Origin: Allobranchiibius sp. CTAmp26
GTDB lineage: Bacteria > Actinomycetota > Actinomycetes > Actinomycetales > Dermatophilaceae
Direction: 5' to 3'
Length of the DNA: 64,000 bases
NCBI RefSeq assembly: GCF_017565405.1
Contig: NZ_JAGEKR010000009.1
Coordinates: forward strand, 1-64,000
Part shown: piece after piece, positions 1,192-17,102 of the stretch
Layout: the number at the start of each line of letters is the position of its first letter
Position numbering within the stretch: position 1 is the first letter of the stretch
Made by a program: the position numbers and the translations under genes
The notes under the pieces: generated by a model
Told to the model about the DNA's origin: nothing
Seen by the model: the letters and a program-made list of their open reading frames with translations, nothing else
Databases searched by the model: none

Positions 1192-1240
1192 CAGATGCTC
1201 TCGTTCGTCGTGTCGAAGGGGGCTGCCGGGGTCCTGCGGG

Positions 1241-2434
1241 TCACAGACCCAGGACCGCCTTGGCGATGACGCCGCGCTGGATCTCGTTGGAACCACCGAA
1301 GATCGACAGCTTGCGCATGTTGAGGTACTGCAGGGCGGCCGTGCTCGCGGCGTGCTCGCTGCTCAGGCCGACCGGGGTGCCGTCGGTGCCCTCGGTGTCG
1401 CCGACGAGCACGGAGTCGGTGCCGCCGGCATCCAGCCGCAGGGCGGTGAGGCTCTGCAGCAGTCGGGTGCCCTCGAGCTTCAACAGCGAGGACGCCGGGT
1501 CGGGCTTGCCGTCCGCGGAGGCGCCCGCGACGCGCAGCTGGGTCGCCTCGAGCGCGAGCAGCCGCATCTTGGCGGTGTGCAGCTGCGCGCGGAAGTCCGG
1601 GTCCTCGGCGAGGGTGCCCTCTTCGACGTCGGTCTCCTTGGCGGCGTCGACCAGCTCGGCGAAGACCCGCTGGCTGGTGCCCACCTGGGCGATCCCGTTG
1701 CGCTCGTTGCCGAGCAGGAACTTGGCGTAGGTCCAGCCCTTGTTCTCCTCGCCGACCAGGTTCGAGACCGGCACGCGGACGTTGTCGAAGAAGAACTCGT
1801 TGACCTCGACGCTGCCGTCGATCAGCTTGATCGGGCGACGCTCGATGCCGGGGGTCTGCATGTCGACCAGGATGAACGAGATGCCCTGCTGCTTGCGCTC
1901 CGCGCCGGGGTTGGTGCGGGCGAGCAGGAACATCCAGTCGCCGTACTGGCCGAGGGTGGTCCAGGTCTTCTGTCCGTTGATGACGTACTCGTCACCGTCG
2001 CGGATCGCGGTGGTCTTGAGGCCAGCGAGGTCCGAGCCCGCCTCGGGCTCGGAGAATCCCTGCGACCACCAGATGTCGAGGTTGGCCGTGGCCGGGAGGA
2101 ACTTCTCCTTCTGCTCCTGGCTGCCGAACTCGGCGATGATCGGTCCGACCATGCTCACGTTGAACGCCAGGGGAGTGGGGACGGCGGCACGCTGCAGTTC
2201 CGAGACGTAGATGTTCTGCTGGGTCGCGCTCCACTTCTTGCCGCCCCACTGCGTCGGCCAGTGCGGAACGGCCAGCCCGTGCTCGTGCAGGATCCGCTGG
2301 CTCGTCACGATGTCCTCGCGGCTGATCTGCCCTCGCACCACGCGCTCGCGGATCTCGGCGGGCACCTTCTCGTAGAAGACGGTGCGCAGTTCGTCGCGGA
2401 ACTGCTGCTCCTCGGGTGTGTATTCCAGATCCAT
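1241..2434 (-). CDS. Acyl-CoA dehydrogenase
   Basis: Catalyses alpha,beta-dehydrogenation of an acyl-CoA thioester with FAD. It has 397 residues from ATG 2434; an AAGGA ribosome site precedes it, so the in-frame start 54 nt further upstream is rejected. Visible family motifs are WSQGFSEPEAGSDLAGL (FAD/substrate loop), YVINGQKTWTTLG, and the C-terminal FGGSNEIQRGVIAKAVLGL. It is the first gene of a two-gene operon with the shorter dehydrogenase downstream, an arrangement typical of heteromeric FadE (ChsE-like) enzymes. Divergent from the DUF427 gene across about 100 nt, where I recognise no operator. Confidence 0.92.
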   Translation of the reverse strand: MDLEYTPEEQQFRDELRTVFYEKVPAEIRERVVRGQISREDIVTSQRILHEHGLAVPHWPTQWGGKKWSATQQNIYVSELQRAAVPTPLAFNVSMVGPIIAEFGSQEQKEKFLPATANLDIWWSQGFSEPEAGSDLAGLKTTAIRDGDEYVINGQKTWTTLGQYGDWMFLLARTNPGAERKQQGISFILVDMQTPGIERRPIKLIDGSVEVNEFFFDNVRVPVSNLVGEENKGWTYAKFLLGNERNGIAQVGTSQRVFAELVDAAKETDVEEGTLAEDPDFRAQLHTAKMRLLALEATQLRVAGASADGKPDPASSLLKLEGTRLLQSLTALRLDAGGTDSVLVGDTEGTDGTPVGLSSEHAASTAALQYLNMRKLSIFGGSNEIQRGVIAKAVLGL

Positions 2435-2536
2435 CGGGGTCCTTCCAGGGTTGATCCAGCGTGACGGTCTCTCCCCGCAGCATCTCACTTCCCGTACGCG
2501 CCGGTAGCATCACCCAGGGGCAGGACGGAGCGTCGG

Positions 2537-3034
2537 ATGAACAGAGCACGCAGGGTTGCACCGGGACCAGGGCAGGAATCGGTGTGGGACTACCCGCGAC
2601 CGCCGCGGGTCGAAGCCACCGACGAGCTGGTAGAGGTGGATCTGGGCGGGGCCACCATCGCGAGCAGTCGCGCCGCCGTACGCGTGCTCGAGACCAGTCA
2701 CCCGCCCACCTACTACCTGCCCGCCACGGACTTCGCCGATGGCGCGCTGCACCCCACCGACGGCTCGTCGTTCTGTGAGTTCAAGGGTGTGGCCGCGTAC
2801 TTCGACCTGGTCGGCGGGGGCTCCACGGCGCGCCGCGCCGGGTGGACCTACCCCGACCCCAGCCCGGGATTCGAAATGCTGCGCGGCTACGTCGCGGTCA
2901 TGCCGGGTCTGGTGCAGGAATGCCGCGTCGACGGCGAGCGCGTCGACGCGCAGGCCGGGGGTTTCTACGGCGGCTGGATCACCGGCCGTGTCGTCGGCCC
3001 GTTCAAGGGCGAACCGGGGACGATGGGGTGGTGA
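2537..3034 (+). CDS. DUF427 domain protein
   Basis: A 165-residue protein of the DUF427 family (small beta-rich fold, no established enzymatic role). The conserved core is visible as VWDYPRPPRVE near residue 16, then ETSHPPTYYLP, the CEFKGVAAYFDL stretch and the ending GGWITGRVVGPFKG. ATG 2537 gives the full family length. Its stop overlaps the start of the following GntR-type regulator (GTGA at 3031-3034), so the two are translationally coupled. Function unknown; the pairing only suggests joint control. Confidence 0.85.
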   Translation: MNRARRVAPGPGQESVWDYPRPPRVEATDELVEVDLGGATIASSRAAVRVLETSHPPTYYLPATDFADGALHPTDGSSFCEFKGVAAYFDLVGGGSTARRAGWTYPDPSPGFEMLRGYVAVMPGLVQECRVDGERVDAQAGGFYGGWITGRVVGPFKGEPGTMGW

Positions 3035-3405
3035 ACCCGGACCTGCGCATCGACCCGGAGGACGCGACCGCGCCGTACGAGCAGATCTGCCGGCAGATCG
3101 CCGCCGGGTCGAACGACGGCACCCTGCCCGTCGGCACCAAGCTGCCGACGGTGCGTGGGCTCGCCGAGCAACTCGGGGTGGCGCCGGGCACGGTCGCCAA
3201 GGCCTACACCCGGTTGGAGCAGTCCGGCCTGATCGAGACGCGCGGCCGGGCCGGCACCTTCGTCAGCTCCTCCGGCGATCGGTCGCAGGCGGAGACGGCC
3301 GCCGCCGCGGCGGAATTCGCGGAACGGACGCGCCACCTCGGCCTCGACCAGGACACGCTGCTGGCGGTCGTCCGCGCGGCCGTCAGCAACGTGCACTCCC
3401 GCTGA
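3031..3405 (+). CDS. GntR-family regulator, short YtrA-like type
   Basis: A 124-residue transcription factor. Residues about 10-75 form the GntR winged helix (YEQICRQIAAG, LPTVRGLAEQLGVAPGTVAKAYTRLEQSGLI). The short C-terminal helical tail, with no effector domain, is typical of the YtrA branch. The GTG at 3031 overlaps the DUF427 stop; an extension to the in-frame ATG at 2842 would lie inside the DUF427 gene and is rejected. YtrA regulators often control a neighbouring transporter; none is adjacent here. It faces the dehydrogenase at 3413 tail to tail, only 7 nt apart. Confidence 0.85.
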   Translation: MNPDLRIDPEDATAPYEQICRQIAAGSNDGTLPVGTKLPTVRGLAEQLGVAPGTVAKAYTRLEQSGLIETRGRAGTFVSSSGDRSQAETAAAAAEFAERTRHLGLDQDTLLAVVRAAVSNVHSR

Positions 3406-3412
3406 GCGCGAC

Positions 3413-4666
3413 CTACTTCAGCTGGCTGGAGGACAGGCCGAGCAGCCGCCGGGCCACGATCAGCAGCTGGATCTGCTGGGTCCCCTCGAAGATGTCCAGG
3501 ATCTTGGAGTCCCGCGCCCACTTCTCGAGCAACTCGGTCTCCGCGTAGCCGCTCGCGCCGGCGAGCTCGACGCACGCGAGCGCGACGTTGACGCAGGTGC
3601 GCCCGGCCTTCGCCTTGGCCATCGAGGCCTGCATCGAGTTGGGCTTGCCGTTGTCGGCCATCCACGCGGCGCGCAACGCCAGCAGGTACGCCGCCTCGTA
3701 GTCGGCCTCCATCTGGATCAGCCGGGTCGCGGCATACGGCTGGGCCGTGAGCGGCGCGTCGACGTCCGGTACGACGCCCTCCTTGGCGAGCAGCTCGGTC
3801 GTCAGGTCCAGGCAGGCCCGGGTCAGACCACAGGCCATCGCGGCGACCAGCGGACGGGTGTTGTCGAAGGTCTGCATGACCCCGCCGAAGCCGCCCTCGG
3901 TGCGGATCTCCGGGTCACCCAGCAGGTCGCGGGCCGGGACCCGGCAGTCCTGGAGCAGGAACGCCGCCGTGTCCGAGGCACGGATGCCGAGCTTGTGCTC
4001 CAGTCGCACCAGCTGCAGGCCGGGATTGCTGGTCTCGACCACGAAGGACTTGATGGCCTGCTTGCCGAGCGAGCGGTCCAGCGTTGCCCACACCACGACC
4101 AGGTCCGCACGGGATCCGGCGGTGACGTAGATCTTCTCGCCGTTGAGGACGTACTCGTCACCGTCCTTGATCGCGGTGGTGCGGATCGCGCCTGAGTCCG
4201 AACCGGCTTCCGGCTCGGTGATCGCCATCGCGGCCCAGCGGTTGCCGTACCGCTCCTTCTGCTCATCGCTGGCGACCGCTGCGATCGCCGCATTGCCGAG
4301 GCCCTGGCGGGGGATCGAGAGGGTGAGGCCGACGTCGCCGCGGCAGGTCTGCATGATCGACAGCACCGACGACAGGTTGGCGCCGTTCTTGTTGGGCTTG
4401 CCCAACCGATCGTTGCGACCGGACCCGACACCCGCGGGTGCCGTGTCGGTGTCCTTGACCTGGGCCGACCCGCGCGCGCCGGCGCCCTGAGTCGCACCGG
4501 AGTCGGACATCCCGTCCAGCAGCGCGGACAGCAGGTCGAGCTCGGTGGGGTACTCGTGCTCGGCCAGGTCGTACTTGCGGCTGATCGGGCGGAACATGTC
4601 GTCCGCCAGCGATGCCGCCTGGGTGAGCAGCGGCCGGAACTTCTTGGGGACTTCCAGATCAATCAC
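3413..4666 (-). CDS. Acyl-CoA dehydrogenase
   Basis: A 417-residue acyl-CoA dehydrogenase. It carries MAITEPEAGSDSGAIRTTAI (flavin and substrate loop), YVLNGEKIYVTAGS, and the C-terminal catalytic segment DIFEGTQQIQLLIVARRLLG with the Glu of the EGT motif. Residues about 50-90 are an insertion rich in Gly, Ala, Ser and Asp (GATQGAGARGSAQVKDTD), probably a surface loop. It is the second gene of a pair with the 442-residue dehydrogenase upstream (33 nt gap). Substrate chain length cannot be told. Confidence 0.92.
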   Translation of the reverse strand: MIDLEVPKKFRPLLTQAASLADDMFRPISRKYDLAEHEYPTELDLLSALLDGMSDSGATQGAGARGSAQVKDTDTAPAGVGSGRNDRLGKPNKNGANLSSVLSIMQTCRGDVGLTLSIPRQGLGNAAIAAVASDEQKERYGNRWAAMAITEPEAGSDSGAIRTTAIKDGDEYVLNGEKIYVTAGSRADLVVVWATLDRSLGKQAIKSFVVETSNPGLQLVRLEHKLGIRASDTAAFLLQDCRVPARDLLGDPEIRTEGGFGGVMQTFDNTRPLVAAMACGLTRACLDLTTELLAKEGVVPDVDAPLTAQPYAATRLIQMEADYEAAYLLALRAAWMADNGKPNSMQASMAKAKAGRTCVNVALACVELAGASGYAETELLEKWARDSKILDIFEGTQQIQLLIVARRLLGLSSSQLK

Positions 4667-4699
4667 GATCGATCTCCTGTCGTCGAGTCTCGGGCCGGG

Positions 4700-6028
4700 T
4701 CAGACCAGCAGGGTGCCCTCGAGCACCCCGGCACCGCGCAGGTCGCGGTACCAGCGTTCGTTGTCGTACTCCTTGACGAATCCGTGTCCGCCGAGCAGCT
4801 GCACGCCGTCTGACCCGACGCGGGTCAGGTAGGTGGAGGTGAGGGCGCGCGCGTGGGCGACGGACGCTCCGGCATCGCGGCCGGCATCCAACTGAGCGGC
4901 GGCCCGCCACACGACGAGCCGCAGCGCGTCGACCTCGATCGCGGCGTCGGCGACCGTGAACGCCACGGCCTGCCGCTGCGCGATCGGCTCGCCGAACGCG
5001 GTCCGCTCGACGGTGTACGTCGTCAGATGGTCGACCACGGCCTGCCCGGTGCCGACGGCTGCTGCCGCCCAGGCCAACCGGGCGCGGCGTACGGCGTCGA
5101 CCACGTCGGCCGAGGTGCCGAGCAGGTTGCCCGCCGGGACGCGTACGCCGGCCAGGTGCAGTCGCCCGGTGGCCGCGGCGCGCAGACCCATTGCCGGATC
5201 GTCGGACGTGGTGAGGCCGTCGGTGCCGGGCTGCACCACGATCAGACGGGGTTCGTCGTCCAGCAGCGCGGACACGATGAACAGGTCCGCGCTCGCGGCG
5301 CCGACGACGAGCGACTTCTCTCCATCGATCACGAGGTCGTCGCCATCGGTGCGAGCGACCGTGCGCGGCTTCAGCGGGTCGAAGAGCGGCTGCGGCTCGG
5401 TCATCGCGAGGGCGCCGGAGGCCGGGTCGTCCTCATCGGTGAACGGCGGCAGGAAGGTGGCCTGCTGGGTGGAGCTCCCGTAGTTGACGAGGGCGTTGGC
5501 GACGGCGGCGGAGGACATGATGGCCACGGCCAGCCCCATGTCACCGCGCGCGAGCTCTTCGATGACCAGGGCGCTGGTGACCGCCGAGGCCTCCTCGGCG
5601 ACGCCGCCCAGGTCGGTCGGGACGCCGACGAGCGTCAGGCCCATCGACGCGGCCTGCCGACGGACCTCGTCCGGCACCGCGCGGTCGGTGTCAGCCTGCC
5701 CGCCGGCGGGGCGGATGACCTCGTCGGCGAGTTCGCGGGCCGCCTCCTGGATCATCTCCTGGTCCTCGGACGGCGTGAGATCGAACTCGCGCCGCGGCGT
5801 GCGGTGCTCCGGACGGGTGGCCGCACCCGACCCCGGCTTGCGGGTGAATGCCTTGCCAGCGGCCGTCTGGGCCTTGAAGCCGTGCTGCGCACCCTTGTAG
5901 AGGATGCGCTCGACCTTCGAGCGCAGGGAGGGGTTCTTCATGGCCTCGAGACCGCCGGCGCGGGCGATCAGGCGCAACCCGAATGCCTGGCCCTTGTCGG
6001 CAAGGCTCGGTTTGGAGTGCGTACTCAT
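4700..6028 (-). CDS. Acyl-CoA dehydrogenase
   Basis: A 442-residue acyl-CoA dehydrogenase with an N-terminal extension of about 90 residues rich in Lys and Arg before the first dehydrogenase helix (DLTPSEDQEMIQEAARELAD). The middle has ALAMTEPQPLFDPL, where the usual Glu-Ala-Gly-Ser-Asp is altered, and DDLVIDGEKSLVVG. The C-terminus is LLGGHGFVKEYDNERWYRDL followed by VLEGTLLV. First gene of the pair with the dehydrogenase at 3413-4666. The altered flavin-loop motif suggests a divergent or partner role beside its neighbour. The upstream region holds several nested inverted repeats. Confidence 0.9.
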   Translation of the reverse strand: MSTHSKPSLADKGQAFGLRLIARAGGLEAMKNPSLRSKVERILYKGAQHGFKAQTAAGKAFTRKPGSGAATRPEHRTPRREFDLTPSEDQEMIQEAARELADEVIRPAGGQADTDRAVPDEVRRQAASMGLTLVGVPTDLGGVAEEASAVTSALVIEELARGDMGLAVAIMSSAAVANALVNYGSSTQQATFLPPFTDEDDPASGALAMTEPQPLFDPLKPRTVARTDGDDLVIDGEKSLVVGAASADLFIVSALLDDEPRLIVVQPGTDGLTTSDDPAMGLRAAATGRLHLAGVRVPAGNLLGTSADVVDAVRRARLAWAAAAVGTGQAVVDHLTTYTVERTAFGEPIAQRQAVAFTVADAAIEVDALRLVVWRAAAQLDAGRDAGASVAHARALTSTYLTRVGSDGVQLLGGHGFVKEYDNERWYRDLRGAGVLEGTLLV

Positions 6029-6061
6029 GGCGCGACGCTCCTTCGGGACGAGTGGTCTTTA

Positions 6062-6117
6062 GTTTCCGGTGAGTAAAGTTAGCCTACTCGATAACTGGTA
6101 CGCGCGGTACCGGAAAC
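6062..6117 (-). promoter_or_regulatory. Nested inverted repeats upstream of the dehydrogenase pair
   Basis: Three inverted repeats lie within 60 nt upstream of the gene starting at 6028: GTTTCCGGT (6062-6070) with ACCGGAAAC (6109-6117); GAGTA-N9-TACTC (6071-6089); and GGTAC-GCGCG-GTACC (6097-6111). The position before a fatty-acid-type operon suggests a TetR- or GntR-type operator. The regulator is not identified. Confidence 0.45.
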
Positions 6118-6158
6118 ACGACGTACCGCGTAATTCCTCCGCCCGCACCAACGCGAGA

Positions 6159-6185
6159 CCGCCCGACCAGGTGATGGTCGGGCGG
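6159..6185 (-). terminator. Terminator hairpin after malate synthase
   Basis: A 10-bp perfect stem (CCGCCCGACC with GGTCGGGCGG) and a 7-nt loop lie 28 nt beyond the malate synthase stop codon on its strand. There is no clear T tract. Confidence 0.6.
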
Positions 6186-6212
6186 CCTGCTCATGCGGTG
6201 AGGCGGACGGCG

Positions 6213-7817
6213 TCAGGGCATCCGCTCGTACGCCGGCAGGGTGAGGAAGTCGGCGTACTCATCGGCGACGGCGACCTGCAGGAAGGTCTCCTTGGCCGCC
6301 TCGTAGTCGGCCGGGTCGCCGGGCAGGCCGGCGATGACCTCGTCGACGATCTGTTGCACCCATTCCGCGGTGATGAGCGTGCCCGAGTCGGCCGTGGTGA
6401 CGCCGTTCTTGATCTGCTGCCAGATCTGCGAACGGGAGATCTCCGCGGTCGCCGCATCCTCCATCAGGTTGTGGATGGCCACGGCGCCTCGACCGGTCAA
6501 CCAGCTGCGCAGGTACTGCAGCGCGATGTCGATGTTGGAGCGCAACCCGGCCTCGGTGACGTCGCCGGGTGTGGAGCGCACGTCCAGCAGTGCCGCGGCG
6601 TCGACCGACACGTCCTCGCGGGTCTTGTCCAGCTGGTTGGGCTTGCCGCCCAGCACCTGCTCGAACACCTCGAAGCAGGTCTTGACCATCGCGGGGTGCG
6701 CCACCCACGACCCGTCGAAGCCGTCGTTCGCCTCGCGGGTCTTGTCGGCGGTGACCTTCTCGTACGCCGCGGTGTTGGTCTCCTCGTCCTTGCTCGGGAT
6801 CTGCGCGGCCATGCCGCCCATCGCCGACGCGCCGCGCTTGTGGCAGGTACGCACCAGCAACTCGGTGTACGCGCGCATGAACGGCACGGTCATCGTCACG
6901 GTGTTGCGGTCCGGGACGATGTAGTCGGCGCCGCGGGTGCGATAGGTCTTGATGACCGAGAACAGGTAGTCCCACCGGCCGGCGTTCAGGCCGGAGGAGT
7001 GCTCGCGCAGCTCGTAGAGGATCTCCTCCATCTCGAACGCCGCGGGGAAGGTCTCGATCAGACAGGTGGCCCGGATGGTGCCCTGCGGGATGTCGAGGAA
7101 GTCCTGACCCAGCACGAAGGCCCGATTCCAAAGCCGCGCCTCCTTGTGGCTCTCCATCTTCGGCAGGTAGTAGTACGGCCCGTGCCCGCGGTCGATCTGC
7201 TTCTGGCCGCAGGCCGTCAGGTAGAGCGCGAAGTCGACCAGGGACCCGGAGGTCTGCTCTCCGTCGACCAGGATGTGCTTCTCCGGCAGGTGCCAGCCCC
7301 GCGGCCGCACGATGATGGTCGGCTGCTGCTCGAACGGCACGACCTTGTAGTCCTTGCCCTCGGCGCTGGTGAAGTCGAGGGTGCCGTCGATGGAATCCAT
7401 CAGATTGAGCGGGCCCTGCACGACGTTGCCCCACATCGGGGTGTTGGCGTCCTCCTGGTCGGCCAGCCATGCGCGGGCGCCGGAGTTCAGCGCGTTGATG
7501 GTCATCTTTGCGTCGGTCGGACCGGTCATCTCGACCCGGCGGTCCTCCAGCCCCGGCGCGAGGGGCGCCACCTTCCAGCTGTCGTCCTCGCGCACGCTGC
7601 GGGTCTCGTCGAGGAAGCCCAGGTCGGTGCCGGCGGCCACCTGCGCGACCCGAGCGGTCCTCGCCTGCAACGCGGTGAGGCGGTCGGCGTTCAACTCACG
7701 GTGCAGTCGCGCGATCAGCTCCAGGGCCCGCGGGGACAGGATGACGTCGTAGCGCTCCTGCAACGGTCCCGTCACCTGCACGCCGTCGGGCAGCTGAAGA
7801 GTGGGTGCGTCGGACAT
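6213..7817 (-). CDS. aceB: Malate synthase A (glyoxylate shunt)
   Basis: Condenses glyoxylate with acetyl-CoA to give malate, the second step of the glyoxylate bypass. Its 534 residues match the A-type enzyme length, not the larger G type. ATG 7817 is set by a perfect AGGAGG 6 nt upstream; the longer in-frame reading is discarded. Family segments include ATCLIETFPAAFEMEEILYE, AGRWDYLFSVIKTYR, PFMRAYTELLVRTCHKRGA and the C-terminal DGSWVAHPAMV. Isocitrate lyase is not in the window. The acyl-CoA dehydrogenases next door produce the acetyl-CoA this pathway needs. A palindrome at 7884-7899 may control it. Confidence 0.96.
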   Translation of the reverse strand: MSDAPTLQLPDGVQVTGPLQERYDVILSPRALELIARLHRELNADRLTALQARTARVAQVAAGTDLGFLDETRSVREDDSWKVAPLAPGLEDRRVEMTGPTDAKMTINALNSGARAWLADQEDANTPMWGNVVQGPLNLMDSIDGTLDFTSAEGKDYKVVPFEQQPTIIVRPRGWHLPEKHILVDGEQTSGSLVDFALYLTACGQKQIDRGHGPYYYLPKMESHKEARLWNRAFVLGQDFLDIPQGTIRATCLIETFPAAFEMEEILYELREHSSGLNAGRWDYLFSVIKTYRTRGADYIVPDRNTVTMTVPFMRAYTELLVRTCHKRGASAMGGMAAQIPSKDEETNTAAYEKVTADKTREANDGFDGSWVAHPAMVKTCFEVFEQVLGGKPNQLDKTREDVSVDAAALLDVRSTPGDVTEAGLRSNIDIALQYLRSWLTGRGAVAIHNLMEDAATAEISRSQIWQQIKNGVTTADSGTLITAEWVQQIVDEVIAGLPGDPADYEAAKETFLQVAVADEYADFLTLPAYERMP

Positions 7818-7883
7818 CGATCCTCCTGGGAAGGCCATCGGGTCGGCGCTCGCGGCGTCGCGAACGTCGTCGGTCCGCCGAAG

Positions 7884-7899
7884 GTTACCAGCCAGTAAC
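7884..7899 (-). promoter_or_regulatory. Palindrome upstream of malate synthase
   Basis: GTTAC-CAGCCA-GTAAC is a perfect 5+5 bp inverted repeat, 67 nt before the aceB start. The spacing fits a promoter-proximal operator. The binding regulator is unknown. Confidence 0.45.
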
Positions 7900-7936
7900 A
7901 TTCGGCTGCGTCGGCTACGCCATTGTGCATGAACGC

Positions 7937-7971
7937 CGTGTGCCGCCACGTCCAGGACGAGGCGGCACACG
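7937..7971 (-). terminator. Terminator hairpin after the ABC importer operon
   Basis: An 11-bp perfect stem, CGTGTGCCGCC with GGCGGCACACG, and a 13-nt loop, 27 nt beyond the last binding-protein stop codon. Confidence 0.65.
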
Positions 7972-7997: not shown

Positions 7998-8948
7998 TCA
8001 GCCCTTCTTCGCCAGGTCGGCGATGGAGACCAGGTGGTACTTCTGGGCCGTCGCCTTGGTCACCATGACCGAGTCGTTGTCCTGCGCCTGCGCCGGAGTC
8101 AACGCCACGATGGAGGAGGGCAGCGCCTTCTTCAGCGCGGCCATCACCTCGGCAGTGCTGGAGGCGCTGGTCGAGTTGTCCAGGTAGCTCGCCAGGGCGC
8201 CGTTGTACTCCGGGAACATGTTGATCGATCCGGCCTTCAGTGCCGGGTAGTACTTCTCGCGGCTGCCGATGTTGAACTTGTCGGTCACCTTGGCTCCGGC
8301 GCTCGCCAGCGCTTGGGAGTAGAGGTTGCCGAGGACGACGCTCTCCGGGAAGTTCGAGGAACCGACGCTGAGCGAGACACCGCTGGCCTTGCCCGGCATG
8401 TTGATCGGGTTCTTCGCCAGGAAGGCCTTCGCGACCGCCGCCGGGTCCTCCTTGTCGGTGATGGCCTGGGAGACCATGTCGACCAACGCCTGCTGCGACA
8501 GCTTCGCCGACACCGCGTTGAGCACCGCCTCGACTCCCGGCGTCGCCTTGCTCTTGGTCACCAGCGGAGTGATGTTCTGCGCCGCGAAGTTGTTCTTCGG
8601 ATCCTTCAGCGAGACGAACCCGTACTTCTTGATCGACGGGTCCGTGCTGAAGATGTCGGCCGCGTCGATCTGACCGTTCACCAGAGCGCCGACGGTGACG
8701 GGGCCGCCGGTGTCGGTGACGGTGTACTTGCCGAAGACAACGCCGTAGTTCTTCTTCAGCCCCGGGAGGCCGTTGGCGCGGGTCTTGAACTCGGCGGAGC
8801 CTCCCATGATGAGCTTCGAAGCGACGGTGCCGCTGCTGCCCGATGTGGCGCCGTTGCTGCTCCCGGTCTTCGAGCTGTCCTTGCCGCACGCGGCCAGGCC
8901 GAGGCCCAGCCCGACCACTACGACGATGCTGATGCTGCGTCTGATCAT
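7998..8948 (-). CDS. Betaine-type ABC importer binding lipoprotein 1, circularly permuted
   Basis: A 316-residue extracytoplasmic substrate-binding lipoprotein. The signal peptide ends in LAAC with lipid-modified Cys21, followed by a Ser/Gly/Thr linker to about residue 42. Residues 44-181 (KLIMGGSAEF, DGQ/ADIFSTDP, PVTVGALVNGQ, LNAVSAKL, DKEDPAAVA) match what is normally the second half of OpuCC/actinobacterial ProX proteins. Residues 190-316 (SVGSSNFPES, NIGSREKYYPALKAG, MFPEYNGAL, ending SIADLAKKG) match the normal first half. The order is therefore permuted. Signal peptide and stop are both in place, so this is not an assembly break. Last gene of the importer operon, 2 nt after its paralogue. 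The family binds quaternary ammonium compounds. Confidence 0.93.
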   Translation of the reverse strand: MIRRSISIVVVVGLGLGLAACGKDSSKTGSSNGATSGSSGTVASKLIMGGSAEFKTRANGLPGLKKNYGVVFGKYTVTDTGGPVTVGALVNGQIDAADIFSTDPSIKKYGFVSLKDPKNNFAAQNITPLVTKSKATPGVEAVLNAVSAKLSQQALVDMVSQAITDKEDPAAVAKAFLAKNPINMPGKASGVSLSVGSSNFPESVVLGNLYSQALASAGAKVTDKFNIGSREKYYPALKAGSINMFPEYNGALASYLDNSTSASSTAEVMAALKKALPSSIVALTPAQAQDNDSVMVTKATAQKYHLVSIADLAKKG

Positions 8949-8950
8949 GG

Positions 8951-9907
8951 TCAGCCCTTCTTCGCAAGGTCCGCGATGGACACGAGCTTGTACTTGTCGG
9001 CGGTGGCCTTGGTCACCACGATCGCGTCGCTGTCCTGGGCCTCGGCGGGCTTGAGCGCGACGATGCTCGAGGGCAGGGCCTTGGCCAGGGCGGTGTCGAC
9101 GGCGGCCGTGCTCGCCTCGGTGGCCCCCTGCTGCAGATAGCTGAGCACGGCGCCGTTGTACTCCGGGAAGACGTTGATCGACCCGGACTTGAGTGCCGGG
9201 AAGTACTTCTCGCGGCTGCCGATGTTCAGCTTCGTCGACACCTTGGCGCCCGCGCTCTTCAGCGCTTCCGCGTAGATCTCGGCGAGCACGACGTTCTCCG
9301 GGAAGTTGGCGGAGCCCACGGTGAGCGAGGCGCCGCTCGCCTTGCCCGACATATTGACCGGGTGCGCGGACAGGAAGCTCTTGGCGACGGCATCGGGGTC
9401 CTTCTTGTCCGTGACCGCCTGGGTGACCAGGTCACGCAGGGCCGCGGTGGACAGGCTGGCGGAGATCGCGTTCAGCACCGCCTGCACCCCGGGAGTCGCC
9501 TTGGACTTGCTCACGAGCGGGACGATGTTCTGCGCCGCGAAGTTGTGCTTGGGGTCGGTGAGCACCACGAAGTTGTTCGCCTTGATCGACGGGTCGGTCG
9601 TGAAGATGTCGGCCGCGTCGACCTGGCCGTTCTTCAGCGCGCCGATGGTCACCGGGCCACCGGTGTCGGTGACGGTGTACTTCCCGAAGGCGACGCCGTA
9701 GTTCTTCTTCAGCCCGGGGAGCCCGTCGGCCCGGGTCTGGAACTCGGCCGGACCGCCCATGATCAGCTTCGAGGCGATGGTGCCTGCCGCAGCACTGCCG
9801 CTGGCGCTGCCGCTACCAGTGCCGGTTTTCGAGCTGTCCTTGCCGCACGCGGCGAGGCCGAGGCCGAGGCCGGCGACCGCGACGATGCTGATGGTGCGCT
9901 TGATCAT
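8951..9907 (-). CDS. Betaine-type ABC importer binding lipoprotein 2, circularly permuted
   Basis: A 318-residue paralogue of the next gene with the same permuted layout: signal peptide with lipobox LAAC (Cys21), normal C-half segment first (KLIMGGPAEFQTR, ADIFTTDPSIKANNF, EDPKH-like DPKHNFAAQN), then the normal N-half (TVGSANFPEN, LNIGSREKYFPALKSG, VFPEYNGAVL, SIADLAKKG at the end). ATG 9907 has an AGGAG ribosome site. The two proteins are similar along their whole length, so they arose by tandem duplication after the permutation. Two binding proteins for one permease pair suggest two related ligands or affinities (inference). Confidence 0.93.
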   Translation of the reverse strand: MIKRTISIVAVAGLGLGLAACGKDSSKTGTGSGSASGSAAAGTIASKLIMGGPAEFQTRADGLPGLKKNYGVAFGKYTVTDTGGPVTIGALKNGQVDAADIFTTDPSIKANNFVVLTDPKHNFAAQNIVPLVSKSKATPGVQAVLNAISASLSTAALRDLVTQAVTDKKDPDAVAKSFLSAHPVNMSGKASGASLTVGSANFPENVVLAEIYAEALKSAGAKVSTKLNIGSREKYFPALKSGSINVFPEYNGAVLSYLQQGATEASTAAVDTALAKALPSSIVALKPAEAQDSDAIVVTKATADKYKLVSIADLAKKG

Positions 9908-9976: not shown

Positions 9977-10756
9977 TCAGACAGTTACCCCCGCCTCGTC
10001 GACGGCGGCCACCCGGGAGTCGGCCTCGCCCGCGGCACCGCGGCGCCGGTCCGCGCGCTTGGAGAACCGTCCGCTCACCCCGGGCGAGACGAGGATGCGC
10101 TGGATGGCTGCCAGGAGCAGGTCGACCAGCAGGGCGAGCAGGGCGACGAGGACGCCACCGCCGATCATCTGCGGGAAGTCGCGCTGGGCGAGACCGTCGT
10201 AGATGAACCGGCCGAGTCCGCCGAGCGGCACGAAGGACGCGATGGTGGCCGTGGCGATGAGCTGGAGCGCGGCGGAGCGCACCCCGGAGATGACCAGGGG
10301 CAGGGAGTTGGGAAGTTCCACCTTGAGCAGCACCTGACCGCCCTTCATCCCCATCCCGTAGGCCGCGTCCCGCACGGCGGGATCGACGTTCTCCACACCC
10401 GCGTAGGTGCCGGCGAGGATGGGCGGGACTGCGAGCAGCATGAGGACGATCTCGGTCGGAATGATGAATCCCGCCTGGGTGCGGCCGTGGAAGTGCGGCG
10501 AGATGATCACCACCAGCAGGATCAGCAGTCCGATGCTCGGGATCGAGCGGATGGCGTTGGCGAGGGAGACGGCCGAACCGCCCCTGCCCGTGTGGCCGAT
10601 GAGCAGGCCCAACGGGACGGCGATCAACATCGCGATGAGCAGCGCGATGCCGACGTAGGAGATGTGCCGTTCCAGCTGGGTGACGATGCCGTCGGTCGTC
10701 CCCGTTCCGCGCCAGTGCGACGGATCGTTGAGCCAGGTGATGACGTTGCCGATCAT
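9977..10756 (-). CDS. Betaine-type ABC importer permease 2
   Basis: Inner-membrane subunit of the OpuCB/OpuCD (ProW) type, 259 residues from ATG 10756, whose ATGA overlaps the stop of the preceding permease; an ATG 21 nt further upstream is possible. Five or six hydrophobic segments are visible (for example YVGIALLIAMLIAVPLGLLI, GLLILLVVIIS, EIVLMLLAVPPILAGTYAG). The cytoplasmic EAA loop reads VRDAAYGMGMKGGQVLLKVE. The C-terminal 30 residues are charged and cytoplasmic. A 69-nt gap separates it from the first binding protein. Confidence 0.93.
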   Translation of the reverse strand: MIGNVITWLNDPSHWRGTGTTDGIVTQLERHISYVGIALLIAMLIAVPLGLLIGHTGRGGSAVSLANAIRSIPSIGLLILLVVIISPHFHGRTQAGFIIPTEIVLMLLAVPPILAGTYAGVENVDPAVRDAAYGMGMKGGQVLLKVELPNSLPLVISGVRSAALQLIATATIASFVPLGGLGRFIYDGLAQRDFPQMIGGGVLVALLALLVDLLLAAIQRILVSPGVSGRFSKRADRRRGAAGEADSRVAAVDEAGVTV

Positions 10757-11454
10757 CCTCGGGCCGCCCGTCGCCATGGCGTGAGCCCTCGGCCGGCCAG
10801 GATCACCAGTGCATCCAGCGCCAGCGCGAGGATCACGCAGAGGACCAGGCCCAGCACGATGGGCGGGTAGTACGGACTCGTGCCGGAGGACAACTGGTAG
10901 CCCGTCGTGAAGAGGTTGCCGAGGTTCTGGAAGCCGATGGTGCCGGCGATCGCCACAATGCTGACGTTGGACACGACGGCCACCCGCAGGCCGGCGGTGA
11001 TCACGGGCACGGCGATCGGCAGGTCGACCTTGAGGAGGCGGGCCAGCGGGGTGAAGCCGATAGCGGTGGCCGCCTGGCGGGTGTCCTCACTGACCGAGCC
11101 GAGCCCGTCGGCGACGACCCGCACCAGCAGCGCCACCGAATACACCGTGAGGGCGATCGGCACCTGCAGTTCCGAGAGCTGGTCGAGATGCAGCAGCGGC
11201 GGAATCAGCACGAAGAGTGCGATCGACGGGATGGTGTAGAGCAGCCCGGAGACGGTCATGATCGGCGGGTAGCTCCACGAGAACCGGTTCGAGAGCCACC
11301 CGAGCGGCAGCGCGATGACCAGGCCCAGGACGACCGGTACGACCGAAAGCCACGTGTGGGACCAGAGCAGCTGCAGGTCCGCGCTGCGGTGGTCCATGAA
11401 GTAGCTCCAGAAGCTGAGCGGCGAGGAGCTCACCTCATTCGCGAAGCCGCTCAT
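10753..11454 (-). CDS. Betaine-type ABC importer permease 1
   Basis: A 233-residue permease subunit of the same family. Membrane segments include WLSVVPVVLGLVIALPLGWL, LLYTIPSIALFVLIPPLL and the last segment IVLGLVLCVILALALDALVIL. The EAA-like loop is TRQAATAIGFTPLARLLKVD. It starts with an ATGA overlap on the ATPase gene and ends with another on permease 2. Together the two permeases probably form a heterodimer served by the single ATPase upstream. Confidence 0.93.
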   Translation of the reverse strand: MSGFANEVSSSPLSFWSYFMDHRSADLQLLWSHTWLSVVPVVLGLVIALPLGWLSNRFSWSYPPIMTVSGLLYTIPSIALFVLIPPLLHLDQLSELQVPIALTVYSVALLVRVVADGLGSVSEDTRQAATAIGFTPLARLLKVDLPIAVPVITAGLRVAVVSNVSIVAIAGTIGFQNLGNLFTTGYQLSSGTSPYYPPIVLGLVLCVILALALDALVILAGRGLTPWRRAARG

Positions 11455-12632
11455 GCCGGACCCTTCTGCAGGACGGCCGCGGTGGCGCCGGATGTGCCCT
11501 GGGTGCCGGTGCCGGTGCCGGTGTCGCCATCGGCACCTGCCGGGCCGGGCTCGCTCTTGATGAGCTGCACGACCTCGTCGAGCTGGGCACTGCCGAGCAG
11601 TCGGTGGTTCTCATCGACCACCACGCCCCGACCGGACGGCGAGGACAGACAGGCGTCCAGCGCCGCGCGCAGCGATCCACCCTGTGTCGCCAGCGTCCCG
11701 CCTCGGTAGAGCAACTCCTCGGTGACCTCGCGTCCGGCGGTCTGCTCGACGTTGATCCAGCCCTGCGGGTGCGCCTCCCCGTCGACCGCGAGCAGCCACT
11801 CGGCCGCCTCGGACGCTGCCGGGGCCGTCTCGCCCATCCGCACGGTGGGTTCCTCGTGGTGCGGCAGCTCGTGCCCCTCGCTGAATCCCAGGGCGCGGTA
11901 GCCGCGGTCGCGCCCGACGAACCCGGCGACGAACGCGTCGGCGGGTCGGGCGAGCAGGTCGGCCGGCGTCGCGAGTTGCGCCAGATGCCCACCGACCCGC
12001 AGGACGGCGATCCGGTCGCCGAGCTTGATGGCCTCGTCGATGTCGTGCGTGACGAAGACGATGGTCTTGCCCAGGTCGTCCTGCAGGCGCAGGAACTCGT
12101 CCTGCAACTGCTCGCGCACCACCGGGTCGACGGCCGAGAACGGCTCGTCCATCAGCATCACCGGCGGATCGGCCGCGAGTGCGCGGGCGACTCCGACGCG
12201 CTGCTGCTGTCCGCCGGACAGCTGTGCGGGGTAGCGCTTGGCGAAGCCGCGGTCCAGGCCGACCCGCTCCAGCAGGTCCATGGCGTCGCTACGCGCCTTC
12301 TTCCTGTCGGTGCCGAGCAGCAGCGGCACGGTCGCGACGTTGTCGACGATCGTGCGATGGGGGAAGAGACCGGCATGCTGGATGACGTACCCGATCCGGC
12401 GCCGCAACTCGTGGGTGGCGATCGTGGAGGTGTCGCGGTCGTCCAACCAGATGGAGCCCTGGGTGGGCTCGATCATCCGGTTGATCATCCGCAGGCTGGT
12501 GGTCTTGCCGCAGCCCGACGGGCCGACGAAGACGGTGATCTTGCCGGTCTCGGCGGTCAGGTCGAGAGAGTCCACGGCGACGGTCCCGTCGGGATATCGC
12601 TTGGTGACGTTGTCGAAGCGGATCATGCGCAA
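11451..12632 (-). CDS. Betaine-type ABC importer ATPase with CBS-like C-terminus
   Basis: A 393-residue ATP-binding subunit of the OpuCA/ProV type. The Walker A is GPSGCGKTT (about residues 37-45), the ABC signature LSGGQQQRVGVARAL, the Walker B MLMDEPFSAVDP and the switch His is in VFVTHDIDEA. Residues about 270-365 follow the nucleotide domain and resemble a CBS module (SLRAALDACLS, GRGVVVDENHRLLGSAQLDEV), which in OpuA senses ionic strength or nucleotides. The last 25 residues are a Gly/Thr-rich tail. It follows the IclR regulator by 6 nt, so the regulator and importer form one operon. Confidence 0.95.
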   Translation of the reverse strand: MRMIRFDNVTKRYPDGTVAVDSLDLTAETGKITVFVGPSGCGKTTSLRMINRMIEPTQGSIWLDDRDTSTIATHELRRRIGYVIQHAGLFPHRTIVDNVATVPLLLGTDRKKARSDAMDLLERVGLDRGFAKRYPAQLSGGQQQRVGVARALAADPPVMLMDEPFSAVDPVVREQLQDEFLRLQDDLGKTIVFVTHDIDEAIKLGDRIAVLRVGGHLAQLATPADLLARPADAFVAGFVGRDRGYRALGFSEGHELPHHEEPTVRMGETAPAASEAAEWLLAVDGEAHPQGWINVEQTAGREVTEELLYRGGTLATQGGSLRAALDACLSSPSGRGVVVDENHRLLGSAQLDEVVQLIKSEPGPAGADGDTGTGTGTQGTSGATAAVLQKGPA

Positions 12633-12638
12633 TCTCTC

Positions 12639-13331
12639 CTAGGTGCCGAGCTGGACTTCGAGACGGTGCGCTGCTTCTGCAATCACAGCACCGCAGTGTG
12701 ACAACGCGCTGTCGGTCAACCGGTAGGACGGACCGAGGATGGTGACGGCCGCGACGATCCTGTCCTGCGACCGGACCGGGGAGGACACCGCCGTGATGTC
12801 GGGCTCCAGCTGTCCGCGGGTGGCGAGGTAGCCCTCCGGCGTCGATTCGCCGGCGAGCGCGGCGCGGACGGCGTACGCGTCCAGCCCCACCTCCCGGCCG
12901 ATCCACGAGCTGTGCCGAATGGGCCAGGTGCCCTCGTGCGCCGCGGCGTAGACCGCTGTCCTTCCGGGGCCGGGCAGCGCGAGGTAGGCGGATTCGCCGG
13001 TCGCGTCGACGACGCCCGCGAGCGCCGGACGGCTCAGCGCGACGAGGCGGTGGCTGCTGAGGGCACGCGTCCCGATCTGCACCATCCGGGGTCCCGCGCC
13101 GAAGCTTCCATCGGGGTCGCGAGTGACGAAGCCGGAGTTCTCGAGGGTGCGCAGGAGCCGCAGGGCGGTGCTGGCGGGCAGTGCCGTGCGTCGGGCGCAC
13201 TCGGTGAGGGTCAGGGACGGCTCGCCGCACACCTCCGACAACAGCGCCATCGCTCGATCGACGGCGCGCGTCGATGACGCGGGCGCCACGGAGGCGGTCC
13301 GGCCGGCAGGGGACAACAGTTTCCATTCCAT
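12639..13331 (-). CDS. IclR-family transcriptional regulator
   Basis: A 230-residue IclR regulator. Residues about 20-80 are the winged helix (AMALLSEVCGEPSLTLTECA, LPASTALRLLRTLENSGFV); residues 90-230 are the effector domain. The effector domain is shortened and lacks the usual central Cys-containing loop. First gene of the importer operon and divergent from the lyase gene over 104 nt, so it most likely controls both. IclR proteins usually govern catabolic genes for one small-molecule substrate, which supports a single pathway for importer and lyase. Confidence 0.92.
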   Translation of the reverse strand: MEWKLLSPAGRTASVAPASSTRAVDRAMALLSEVCGEPSLTLTECARRTALPASTALRLLRTLENSGFVTRDPDGSFGAGPRMVQIGTRALSSHRLVALSRPALAGVVDATGESAYLALPGPGRTAVYAAAHEGTWPIRHSSWIGREVGLDAYAVRAALAGESTPEGYLATRGQLEPDITAVSSPVRSQDRIVAAVTILGPSYRLTDSALSHCGAVIAEAAHRLEVQLGT

Positions 13332-13435
13332 AGCAGCGCGTTTTCGTTAGGCGGTAGCCTGACACCTTTTCTTCCCGTGTGGGAGACCCTGCCGGACGCG
13401 CCGCCCGGCGGGGGACGGTGCGAGAGGCTGTGGGC

Positions 13436-14839
13436 GTGGAACTGACCTCTGCAGGGTTGCGCATCGGTGACATCGTGCGCATCGCGATGGATCACGAATC
13501 GTTTACTGTCACAAGAGAAGTCGGCGACCGAGTGGCCGCCGGTGCGGCCCTCGCAGAGCGGCTGGCCGCCCAGCGCCCGGTCTACGGCCGCTCGACCGGG
13601 GTCGGTGCCAACAGGTCCGTCCCTGTCCAGGATCCGGACGGCCAGCTGGCCCGGGTGCTGCGCTCGCACGCCACCTCGCTCGGCCCGCCCCGCGCCGCGG
13701 TGCGTGTGCGGGCGATGGTCGCCGTGCGGATCGGGCAGCTGGCGGCCGGTGGCAGCGGCCTCAGCCGGGTCGCGTTCGACGCCCTGCTGGACATGCTGAA
13801 CGCGGACACCCTTCCTGCCGTGCTCGAGCGCGGCAGCATCGGTACCGGTGATCTGAGCGCCCTGGCCACGGTGGGTTTGTCGTTGCTGGACCACCCCGCG
13901 GGCCCCCGGGTCCGACCGGGCGACGCGCTCGCTCTGATCTCCAGCAACGCCGCGGCGATCGGGGACGCTGCGCTCGCGATCCACCGGCTCGAGATGCTCG
14001 CTCGAGCGGCGGTGCCGATCGCCTCACTCACCCTGCGGGCGGTGCACGGCAACGTCGAGCCGTTCGGGCCGGCCGTCGAACGGGCCACCCCGTTCCCGGG
14101 CGCCCGGCGGGTCTGCATCGCCATGCGGCAGGTGCTGGACGACGACGGGTACGCGGATCCGCCGGCCCGGATCCAGGACCCGTTCGGACTGCGGGCGATG
14201 CCACAGGGCCACGGCGCGTTGCTGGACGCGCTCGACCGTGCCGCCCACGTCGTCCAGGCGATGGCGAACGCGCCGAGCGAGAACCCGGTCTTCGACGAGC
14301 ACACCGGGGTCACCCATCACGGAGCGTTCCACGCCGCGTACCTCGCGCAGGCGCTCGAGGGCCTGCTCGGTGCGCTGGTGCAGGCGGCCCAGCTGGGGCT
14401 CGGTCGGACGACGATCCTGGCGAGCCCCGGGCTCACCGGGGCCACGGCGTTCCTCGCCGACGGCACGCCCGGCGCGTCGGGCACGATGCTGGTGGAGTTG
14501 GTCGCGGCGTCGGCGCTCGCGCGGTTGCGCTCGTTCGCCGCTGCGGCAGCCGGCACTGGCACGGTCACCCTGTCGCGCGGGCTGGAGGACGACGCGAGCT
14601 TCGCCTCCGTCGTGGCGGTCGACGCGCTCGCCGCCGGGGACGCCTACCAGGACCTGCTCGCCGCCGAGCTGCTCACCGCCGCTCGCGCGCTCACCCTCAC
14701 CGATCGGCTGCCGCCCTGGTCGCAGCTCCTGTCGATGCGGCCCGGTCTCGCTCAGCCGGAGGACCGTGACCTGACGGCGGATCTGCAGGCGGCGAGCCGT
14801 GTGGTGCCCGACCTGGTGCACCGCCTACGGAGCCGCTGA
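13436..14839 (+). CDS. HAL/PAL-superfamily lyase lacking the canonical MIO tripeptide
   Basis: A 467-residue aromatic amino acid lyase-family enzyme from GTG 13436, which has GAGAGG 8 nt upstream; GTG starts at 13379, 13418 and 13430 are alternatives. Several HAL active-site positions are visible: Tyr50 in VYGRSTGVGANR, Asn171 in ISSNAAAIGD, Arg in QDPFGLRAMPQGHGALLDAL, and Glu in LSRGLEDDASF. However, the Ala-Ser-Gly that cyclises to MIO (GSVGASGDL in HAL) is replaced by a shorter GSIGTGDL, giving Gly-Thr-Gly at residues 136-138. The enzyme may therefore use another chemistry, as reported for ergothionase in this superfamily. Divergent from the IclR-importer operon. Histidine or phenylalanine ammonia-lyase activity is not supported. 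Confidence 0.88.
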   Translation: MELTSAGLRIGDIVRIAMDHESFTVTREVGDRVAAGAALAERLAAQRPVYGRSTGVGANRSVPVQDPDGQLARVLRSHATSLGPPRAAVRVRAMVAVRIGQLAAGGSGLSRVAFDALLDMLNADTLPAVLERGSIGTGDLSALATVGLSLLDHPAGPRVRPGDALALISSNAAAIGDAALAIHRLEMLARAAVPIASLTLRAVHGNVEPFGPAVERATPFPGARRVCIAMRQVLDDDGYADPPARIQDPFGLRAMPQGHGALLDALDRAAHVVQAMANAPSENPVFDEHTGVTHHGAFHAAYLAQALEGLLGALVQAAQLGLGRTTILASPGLTGATAFLADGTPGASGTMLVELVAASALARLRSFAAAAAGTGTVTLSRGLEDDASFASVVAVDALAAGDAYQDLLAAELLTAARALTLTDRLPPWSQLLSMRPGLAQPEDRDLTADLQAASRVVPDLVHRLRSR

Positions 14840-15764: not shown

Positions 15765-15821
15765 GAGGACATCCTGCAGGTGGTGGCGAGCGATTTCGGC
15801 TGCGCCCTCGGGAGGAGCACC

Positions 15822-17102
15822 ATGGTGACAGTGACCGACACCCTCCCCGCCTCCACCGCGAACGACGCGGTGTCGCCCTCGGACGGCGCTGCGTCGACGC
15901 CTGCCACCGGGACGCTGCACGGTTTCGCGCTGCACGCCGCCCTCGCGTCCATGGCGCTGGGCGGTTTCGCGATCGGCACCACCGAGTTCGTCACGATGGG
16001 GCTGCTCCCGCAGATCGCGCAGGGGGTCCACGTCGGCATCCCGCAGGCCGGACACGTGGTCTCGGCGTACGCGCTCGGCGTCGTGGTGGGGGCACCGACC
16101 ATCGCGACCCTCGCGGCGAAGCTGCCGCGCAAGGGTCTGCTCATCGCTCTGATGATCGCGTTCGCCGTCTTCAACACGGCGTCCGCGCTCGCGCCGAACT
16201 TCGGCACGCTGCTCGTCGCGCGTTTCCTGTCCGGGGTGCCGCACGGAGCCTTCTTCGGCATCGCCTCCGTGCTGGCCGCCGGGCTGGTTGACAAGGAACG
16301 CCGCACCTGGGCCGTGGCGATGATCCTGTCCGGATTGACCGTCGCGAACATCATCGGGGTGCCCGCGTCCACCCTCATCGGCCAGGACCTCGGCTGGCAG
16401 TGGCCCTACGCCGGGGTCGGGGTGATCGCCGCTCTCACTGCGTTCGCCGTGTGGCGGTGGGTGCCACGCCAGCGCGCCGACGCGGGCGCGACCGCCGGGT
16501 CGGAGCTGGCAGCGCTCCGGCTGCCGCAGGTGTGGCTCGCGCTCGGGATCGGGACGGTGGGATTCGGTGGGATGTTCGCCACGTTCTCCTACATCGCGCC
16601 GACCCTGACCCACCTGACGGGGGTCCACGACAACGTCGTACCGCTCTTCCTGGTCTGTTACGGCGTGGGGATGACGACCGGCGCGTTCGCCAGCGGCCGG
16701 CTCGCCCGCATCGGACTGTTGCGCGGGATCCTGCTCTCGCTCGTCCTCATCACCGTGCTGCTCCTGGCCTTCGGACCGATGGTGCACACGGTGGCGGGCG
16801 CGGTGGCTGCGGTCTTCCTGCTCGGGTTCGTCGGGACGCTGCTGGTGCCGATGCTGCAGACCCGGCTGATGGACGTCGCGCATGACGGTCAGGCGCTCGC
16901 CGCGGCGCTCAACCACTCCACGCTCAACCTGGCCAACGCCCTCGGCGCCTGGGTCGGGGGACTGGTGCTGTCGCAGGGCCTCGGCTACGAGTGGCCGAGC
17001 CGGGTCGGGGCGTTCCTCGCGGTCGGCGGCATCGCCATCGCCGCGGTGTCGGCGGTCGCCGGGCGGCGTACGGCGCGCAACGCCGCAGCCGCAGCCGCCT
17101 GA
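15822..17102 (+). CDS. MFS transporter, drug/arabinose-exporter (AraJ/CmlR) type
   Basis: A 426-residue major facilitator with 12 predicted membrane helices. A perfect GGAGGA ribosome site at 15811-15816 precedes ATG 15822. The first helix carries [20 protein letters not shown], diagnostic for the YdhP/AraJ/chloramphenicol-exporter branch. Motif A-like AKLPRKGLL follows helix 2, and [17 protein letters not shown] is in helix 5. The first 36 residues and the last 15 (poly-Ala) are likely cytoplasmic. It diverges from the amidohydrolase gene across 57 nt. The substrate is not predictable. Confidence 0.92.

Follow-up and report, generated by a model that had tools for sequence, protein, structure and literature searches.

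Circularly permuted OpuCC/ProX-like binding lipoproteins in a predicted importer operon of Actinomycetota

Can a solute-binding protein (SBP) carry its two halves in reversed order, and if so, how often and by which route has such an order arisen? This question is raised by two adjacent lipoprotein genes, SBP1 (product P0001) and SBP2 (product P0002), in a 64,000-nt stretch of DNA from Allobranchiibius sp. CTAmp26 (contig NZ_JAGEKR010000009.1, positions 1 to 64,000; hereafter, the window). An initial inspection of the letters without database searches (the sequence-only reading) had interpreted both as circular permutants. Our analysis supports this: both proteins are true circular permutants within the OpuCC/ProX/OsmF-like branch of SBPs.

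Chain order of the two window proteins

The two genes are in tandem on the minus strand, with 2 bp between the P0002 stop and the P0001 start, and their products are 74% identical. As had been noticed from the letters, signal peptides and stops are intact in both genes, and so are the starts and the lipobox (LAAC). In P0002 the signal with the lipobox (residues 1–21) and a linker (22–44) are followed by what is elsewhere the C-terminal half (45–186), a second linker (about 183–194) and the usual N-terminal half (195–316); we call this order type A. Segment classification shows both halves to be complete in both proteins, and both halves match the PF04069 profile (153.5 and 163.3 bits for the two proteins, cut-off 21.2), but in the reversed order, protein residues 45–180 corresponding to profile positions 114–257, and the C-terminal part, to positions 2–113. 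The linear order usual for PF04069 and SBP cluster F-III, the N half and then the C half, is thus not seen in the window proteins; we regard it as a mark of the usual architecture and not as a condition of homology. Matches to the NCBIfam OsmF family and to the PDB sequences of EgtUC, YehZ/OsmF and AfProX (phmmer) are also half-swapped or confined to one displaced half, so that Pfam, NCBIfam and PDB all recover the swap originally proposed, with the second half first.

Global alignments with 49 canonical-order homologues were made in both arrangements. The median scores were 588 swapped vs 326 collinear for P0002, and 571 vs 323 for P0001, the swapped order outscoring the collinear one for 49 out of 49 homologues. 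As the shuffled-sequence control scores only 21.5 ± 7.9, the gain from swapping is not a chance effect. In a rotation scan the optimum cut lies mostly at residues 181–190, in agreement with the cut at about residue 185 suggested beforehand. A permutation inside the OpuCC/ProX/OsmF-like branch, claimed in the sequence-only reading, therefore holds, since the swapped alignment scores better than the collinear one.

An assembly or annotation artefact as the source of this order has a negligible probability. Some carriers are indeed metagenome assemblies, but type A is also present in few-contig genomes (G001, 4 contigs; G002, 3; G422, 1) and in Patulibacter minatonensis DSM 18081, while a second rearranged order, type B (see below), is seen in genomes G006 and G286; moreover, the frames are intact and the ratio of nonsynonymous to synonymous substitution rates (dN/dS) is low.

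The structure of P0002 was modelled by AlphaFold2 with 15 relatives. The best PDB match of the model is OpuAC of Bacillus subtilis (2b4m, 2b4l), covering residues 43–316 (Z 17.1, 245 residues, about 15% identity), and the canonical-order SBP 4nd9 aligns with the model only over residues 193–318. The structure prediction called for at the outset thus yields, at a mean predicted local distance difference test score (pLDDT) of 61.8, a two-lobed binding protein with the full-length topology of OpuAC; a half-swap between OpuAC and ProX had been mentioned there as known. The type A chain topology is therefore already known, from OpuAC, but the window sequences are not of the OpuAC type.

The permuted proteins could in principle be descendants of Firmicutes OpuAC, with no new permutation involved, as OpuAC is also a type II SBP, has the same full-length chain topology and is the top structural match of P0002. 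However, the identity of about 15% compares with about 50% between each half and canonical actinobacterial SBPs, and OpuAC is absent from the phmmer matches up to E 0.01. OpuAC binds betaine through tryptophan (PMC9732360), and the tryptophan count is zero in P0001 and zero in P0002. Finally, the trees described below place the window clade deep within canonical clades of the same operon. Given the sequences and the tryptophan content, we reject descent from OpuAC as very improbable and consider the shared topology to be of separate origin.

Recurrence, cut sites and probable route of the permutation

The permuted form is present in all three genomes of the window genus, occurring in two of these as a tandem pair, and a profile search of the window's own genome reveals no PF04069 gene in canonical order. 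At 60–68% identity, type A proteins are found in Patulibacter minatonensis, Pseudonocardiales, Frankiales and Marmoricola assemblies and, in a class sample of 395 genomes, in four of them; nine further genomes with this order come from a 246-genome phylum sample (37–44% identity). Among fetched SBPs with all three segments used to define the order, 83 are canonical, 25 are type A and 10 are type B. The search for the same order, proposed along with the initial claim, thus shows that type A recurs across Actinomycetota; the sharing by a clade, the recurrence and the second cut site had been missed. Patulibacter minatonensis also has a tandem permuted pair (Table 1), which in the tree is a duplication separate from the window pair.

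Type B occurs in several families within the same taxonomic order and class. The chain begins at LVVLxDD, which lies within the latter half of the C part, runs on through the N half and stops at FSSDG or a few residues beyond it. Type B sequences (at least 11, from several families) form one clade, sister to a canonical clade with 100/100 support, and in their loci the ATPase gene is divergent from the permease and SBP genes. The type B model (pLDDT 79.9) aligns with OpuAC or EgtUC over only about 190 residues, and Foldseek's own matches contain no full-length PDB match to it, which is suggestive only.

For the SBP trees, rows were re-ordered to the canonical order. Type A splits into three clades, A1 (including the window proteins), A2 and A3, each beside canonical relatives, and parsimony yields four order changes. 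Forcing type A into one clade is rejected (decrease in log-likelihood 196, approximately unbiased test p 1.5e-7). In a tree of the ATPases and permeases, with the SBPs left out, A1, A2 and B have support of 100 each, and a 100/100 branch parts A1 from A2/A3/B, with canonical operons on both sides. Trees of the N lobe and of the C lobe place A1 in the same neighbourhood, which rules out A1 as a chimera of two sources. We conclude that the chain was permuted on at least three occasions, probably four. The canonical order is likely ancestral, as EgtUC, OsmF, AfProX and OpuCC all have it.

The cut is in the same loop in A1, A2 and A3, canonically ...DLxxVAS-KLxxGG. A canonical sister of A1 has the sequence ...SIADLTSVASKLTFGAP... 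at this loop, and permuted proteins end with ...SIADLAKPA (or similar) before the stop and start with ...TIASKLIMGGP..., the old termini being bridged by a short Gly/Ser/Ala/Thr linker. In alignments, both the type A and the type B cut map into lobe D2, residues 341–432 of EgtUC (limits from PMC9732360). With both cuts within D2, the original termini would be joined in lobe D1 and the new ones placed in a surface loop of D2, so that the chain ends and the lipid tether would shift from D1 to D2. The fold and its two-strand hinge would be kept, leaving an ordinary Venus-flytrap SBP that passes its ligand to the two permeases.

Permutation by duplication and fission/fusion are both accepted models (PMC3320104). 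The most likely route here is the former, via a tandem copy, in-frame fusion and the acquisition of a new start and a new stop; the common cut loop, the short linker and the occurrence of tandem full-length SBPs in these operons fit it. In our explanation, the A1 permutation is old in the operon lineage, and the tandem duplication followed later, in the window genus; one or more further clades (A2/A3) acquired the same permutation independently, and a third lineage (B) acquired one with a different D2 cut.

For this explanation as a whole, comprising permuted importer SBPs, repeated origins, a tether on D2 and the duplication route, we estimate a probability of about 0.82. Several observations count against it. 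The P0002 model is middling (mean pLDDT 61.8, predicted template modelling score 0.59), with D2 being its weak part; a joint clade of A2 and A3 is not rejected (p 0.077), and the position of A3 is weak when the C-lobe tree is taken alone; and parsimony alone cannot separate repeated gains from gains with reversions. As for the duplication route, which remains a proposal, no fused N-C-N-C intermediate is present among 176 open reading frames, and tblastn detects no gene remnants around 21 loci.

The last two results would also be expected if separate half-genes, one lobe each, had been rejoined in the opposite order. Yet no stand-alone half-gene is recognised beside the permuted genes, both A1 lobes point to one source, and tandem full-length SBPs supply the raw material for duplication; fission followed by fusion is accordingly unlikely, although not strongly so. 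Slightly less probable still is one ancient origin of type A followed by several returns to the canonical order (or by lobe transfer). It would explain the same cut loop and the similar new N-terminus (IAS) of A1, A2 and A3, agrees with a joint A2+A3 clade not being rejected, and reversion by duplication is possible in principle. However, the shared cut-site residues are ancestral, as canonical sisters have VAS or VAG there; the rejected monophyly of type A and the transporter branch between A1 and A2/A3, with canonical members on both sides, contradict this scenario; and the canonical order of the distant EgtUC, OsmF, AfProX and OpuCC would require many reversions. Repeated permutation by duplication remains our preferred explanation. 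A stronger version, with four independent permutations (A1, A2, A3 and B) at two D2 cuts reflecting recurrent selection for moving the anchor from D1 to D2 (e.g., for docking geometry or tether strain) and not drift, is a speculation that we consider doubtful.

Relation to known systems

Two elements are already known: the OpuAC topology and a permuted SBP lipoprotein, MglB-2 (Tp0684) of Treponema pallidum (PMC4990184). The latter is also naturally circularly permuted, but it is a type I (cluster B) sugar SBP of another fold class, with another cut, and is seen in one lineage; its authors suggest that being tethered may favour topologies of this kind (PMC4990184). With canonical ProX, OsmF (YehZ), OpuCC and EgtUC (cluster F-III, PF04069), the window proteins share homologous halves, the two-lobed lipoprotein architecture, the place in the operon and the ProU/OpuC-type ATPase and permeases, but differ in the order of the halves, presumably in the anchor lobe, and in the altered EgtUC aromatic cage. 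ProX of Mycobacterium tuberculosis is a ProX-like actinobacterial SBP that also lacks the aromatic residues for quaternary amines, but it is described as an ordinary ProX homologue and binds polyphenols (PMC5894108). DNA methyltransferases and saposin/swaposin are natural circular permutations as well, the methyltransferases with intermediates (PMC3320104), but they are unrelated, and here several events and two cuts occur in one family of importer subunits. In the open-access literature we found no description of a permutation in the ProX/OpuCC-like branch, of its recurrence or of the type B order.

As a rule, a natural circular permutation is a single, old event that is known from distant structures. 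Here, close relatives from one operon context (about 50% identity per half) exist in both orders, providing matched pairs for studying whether chain order affects how a tethered SBP folds, closes on its ligand and docks, and for asking whether lipid anchoring drives permutation, as suggested for MglB-2. Moreover, PF04069 matches in Actinomycetota risk being misaligned if the order is assumed.

Operon, candidate ligand and neighbouring genes

The operon order is IclR, ATPase, two permeases and two SBPs, the window SBP genes being the last (Table 1); an OpuC/ProU-type ATPase and permeases are thus encoded with them, as is usual for PF04069 and cluster F-III. This gene cluster is shared by other loci with permuted SBPs (e.g., L082, L083, L085, L054 and L056) and by L047, where the SBP is canonical; L084 also has the lyase, ATPase and permeases, and L048 has these together with a canonical SBP. 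The permuted SBP has thus replaced the canonical one in place. The dN/dS values between orthologues (0.059, 0.096 and 0.135) indicate purifying selection, and together with the conserved operon this leads us to conclude that the permuted SBP is the predicted working binding protein of an importer. A scan for promoters and terminators gave nothing clearly above chance. The canonical sister operon of A1 ends with two SBPs of different subfamilies, the second being a relative of the canonical clade that is sister to type B.

Table 1. Coordinates of the window features and of the compared loci.
Feature	Sequence	Coordinates	Strand	Remark
Four acyl-CoA dehydrogenases and malate synthase A	window	43-7970	minus	directly downstream of the SBPs
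SBP1 (P0001), 316 aa	window	7998-8948	minus	tandem paralogue of P0002, same permutation
SBP2 (P0002), 318 aa	window	8951-9907	minus	circularly permuted type A lipoprotein
ABC permease (BPD_transp_1), 266 aa	window	9977-10777	minus	
ABC permease (BPD_transp_1), 233 aa	window	10753-11454	minus	
ABC ATPase, ProV/OpuCA-like	window	11451-12632	minus	TIGR01186 309.5 bits, just under cut-off
IclR-family regulator	window	12639-13331	minus	first gene of the operon
HAL-family (Lyase_aromatic) protein P0003	window	13379-14839	plus	divergent
Amidohydro_2 protein	window	14841 to about 15760	minus	downstream of the lyase
MFS transporter	window	about 15820-17102	plus	
Tandem permuted pair, Patulibacter minatonensis	L055	7941-8897, 9042-9992	plus	type A
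Canonical sister operon of A1	L161	6889-9032	minus	
Canonical sister operon of A1	L162	2797-4949	plus	
Type B locus	L042	5041-6048	minus	
Type B locus	L043	4666-5661	minus	
Type B locus	L045	4780-5784	plus	
Type B locus	L088	5652-6743	plus	
Type B locus	L092	5731-6732	plus	
ABC, ATP-binding cassette; HAL, histidine ammonia-lyase; MFS, major facilitator superfamily.

The aromatic cage of EgtU (F293, Y341, Y419, Y443 and N339; residue roles from PMC9732360) is not retained: in the alignment, F293 corresponds to Y250 of the window protein, N339 to D292, Y341 to D294, Y419 to F102 and Y443 to Q126. E375 and R379, which in EgtUC serve the imidazole and the carboxylate (PMC9732360), are kept as E55 and R59 and are invariant across A1. 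The score with GlyBetbindOsmF (NF049931) is about 86 bits, below the curated cut-off of 400. As the cage is largely lost, betaine, choline or another quaternary-ammonium ligand is unlikely; M. tuberculosis ProX, also without the cage, binds polyphenols (Kd 20–70 uM) and not betaine (PMC5894108).

The lyase gene is conserved beside the transporter in ten loci, with either a permuted or a canonical SBP. In P0003 the Ala-Ser-Gly triad that forms the 4-methylideneimidazole-5-one (MIO) group is one residue short (GSIGTGDL vs GSVGASGDL), so that the intact triad of HAL is absent; the triad is shortened in 10 out of 10 lyase copies, the nine homologues having GTG or GTA. Ergothionase is a MIO-less relative of HAL acting on ergothioneine (PMC13405746), and P0003 matches both ergothionase 6s7j (1.4e-54) and, better, HAL (6.5e-63). 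P0003 may be a lyase that, like ergothionase, lacks MIO, or it may be some other elimination enzyme. An ergothioneine importer, which such a lyase suggests, was considered and set aside as only a lead, the aromatic cage not being conserved. Our best guess, of low confidence, is that the ligand is an amino-acid-like or aromatic carboxylate and a substrate of the lyase.

An Amidohydro_2 gene lies close to the cluster in L054, L056 and L087 as well, and may be part of the same catabolic set. The acyl-CoA dehydrogenase and malate synthase genes downstream of the SBPs are conserved in the genus (L086, L087), and the MFS transporter is related to the chloramphenicol efflux proteins Cmx/CmrA (279 bits, cut-off 400).
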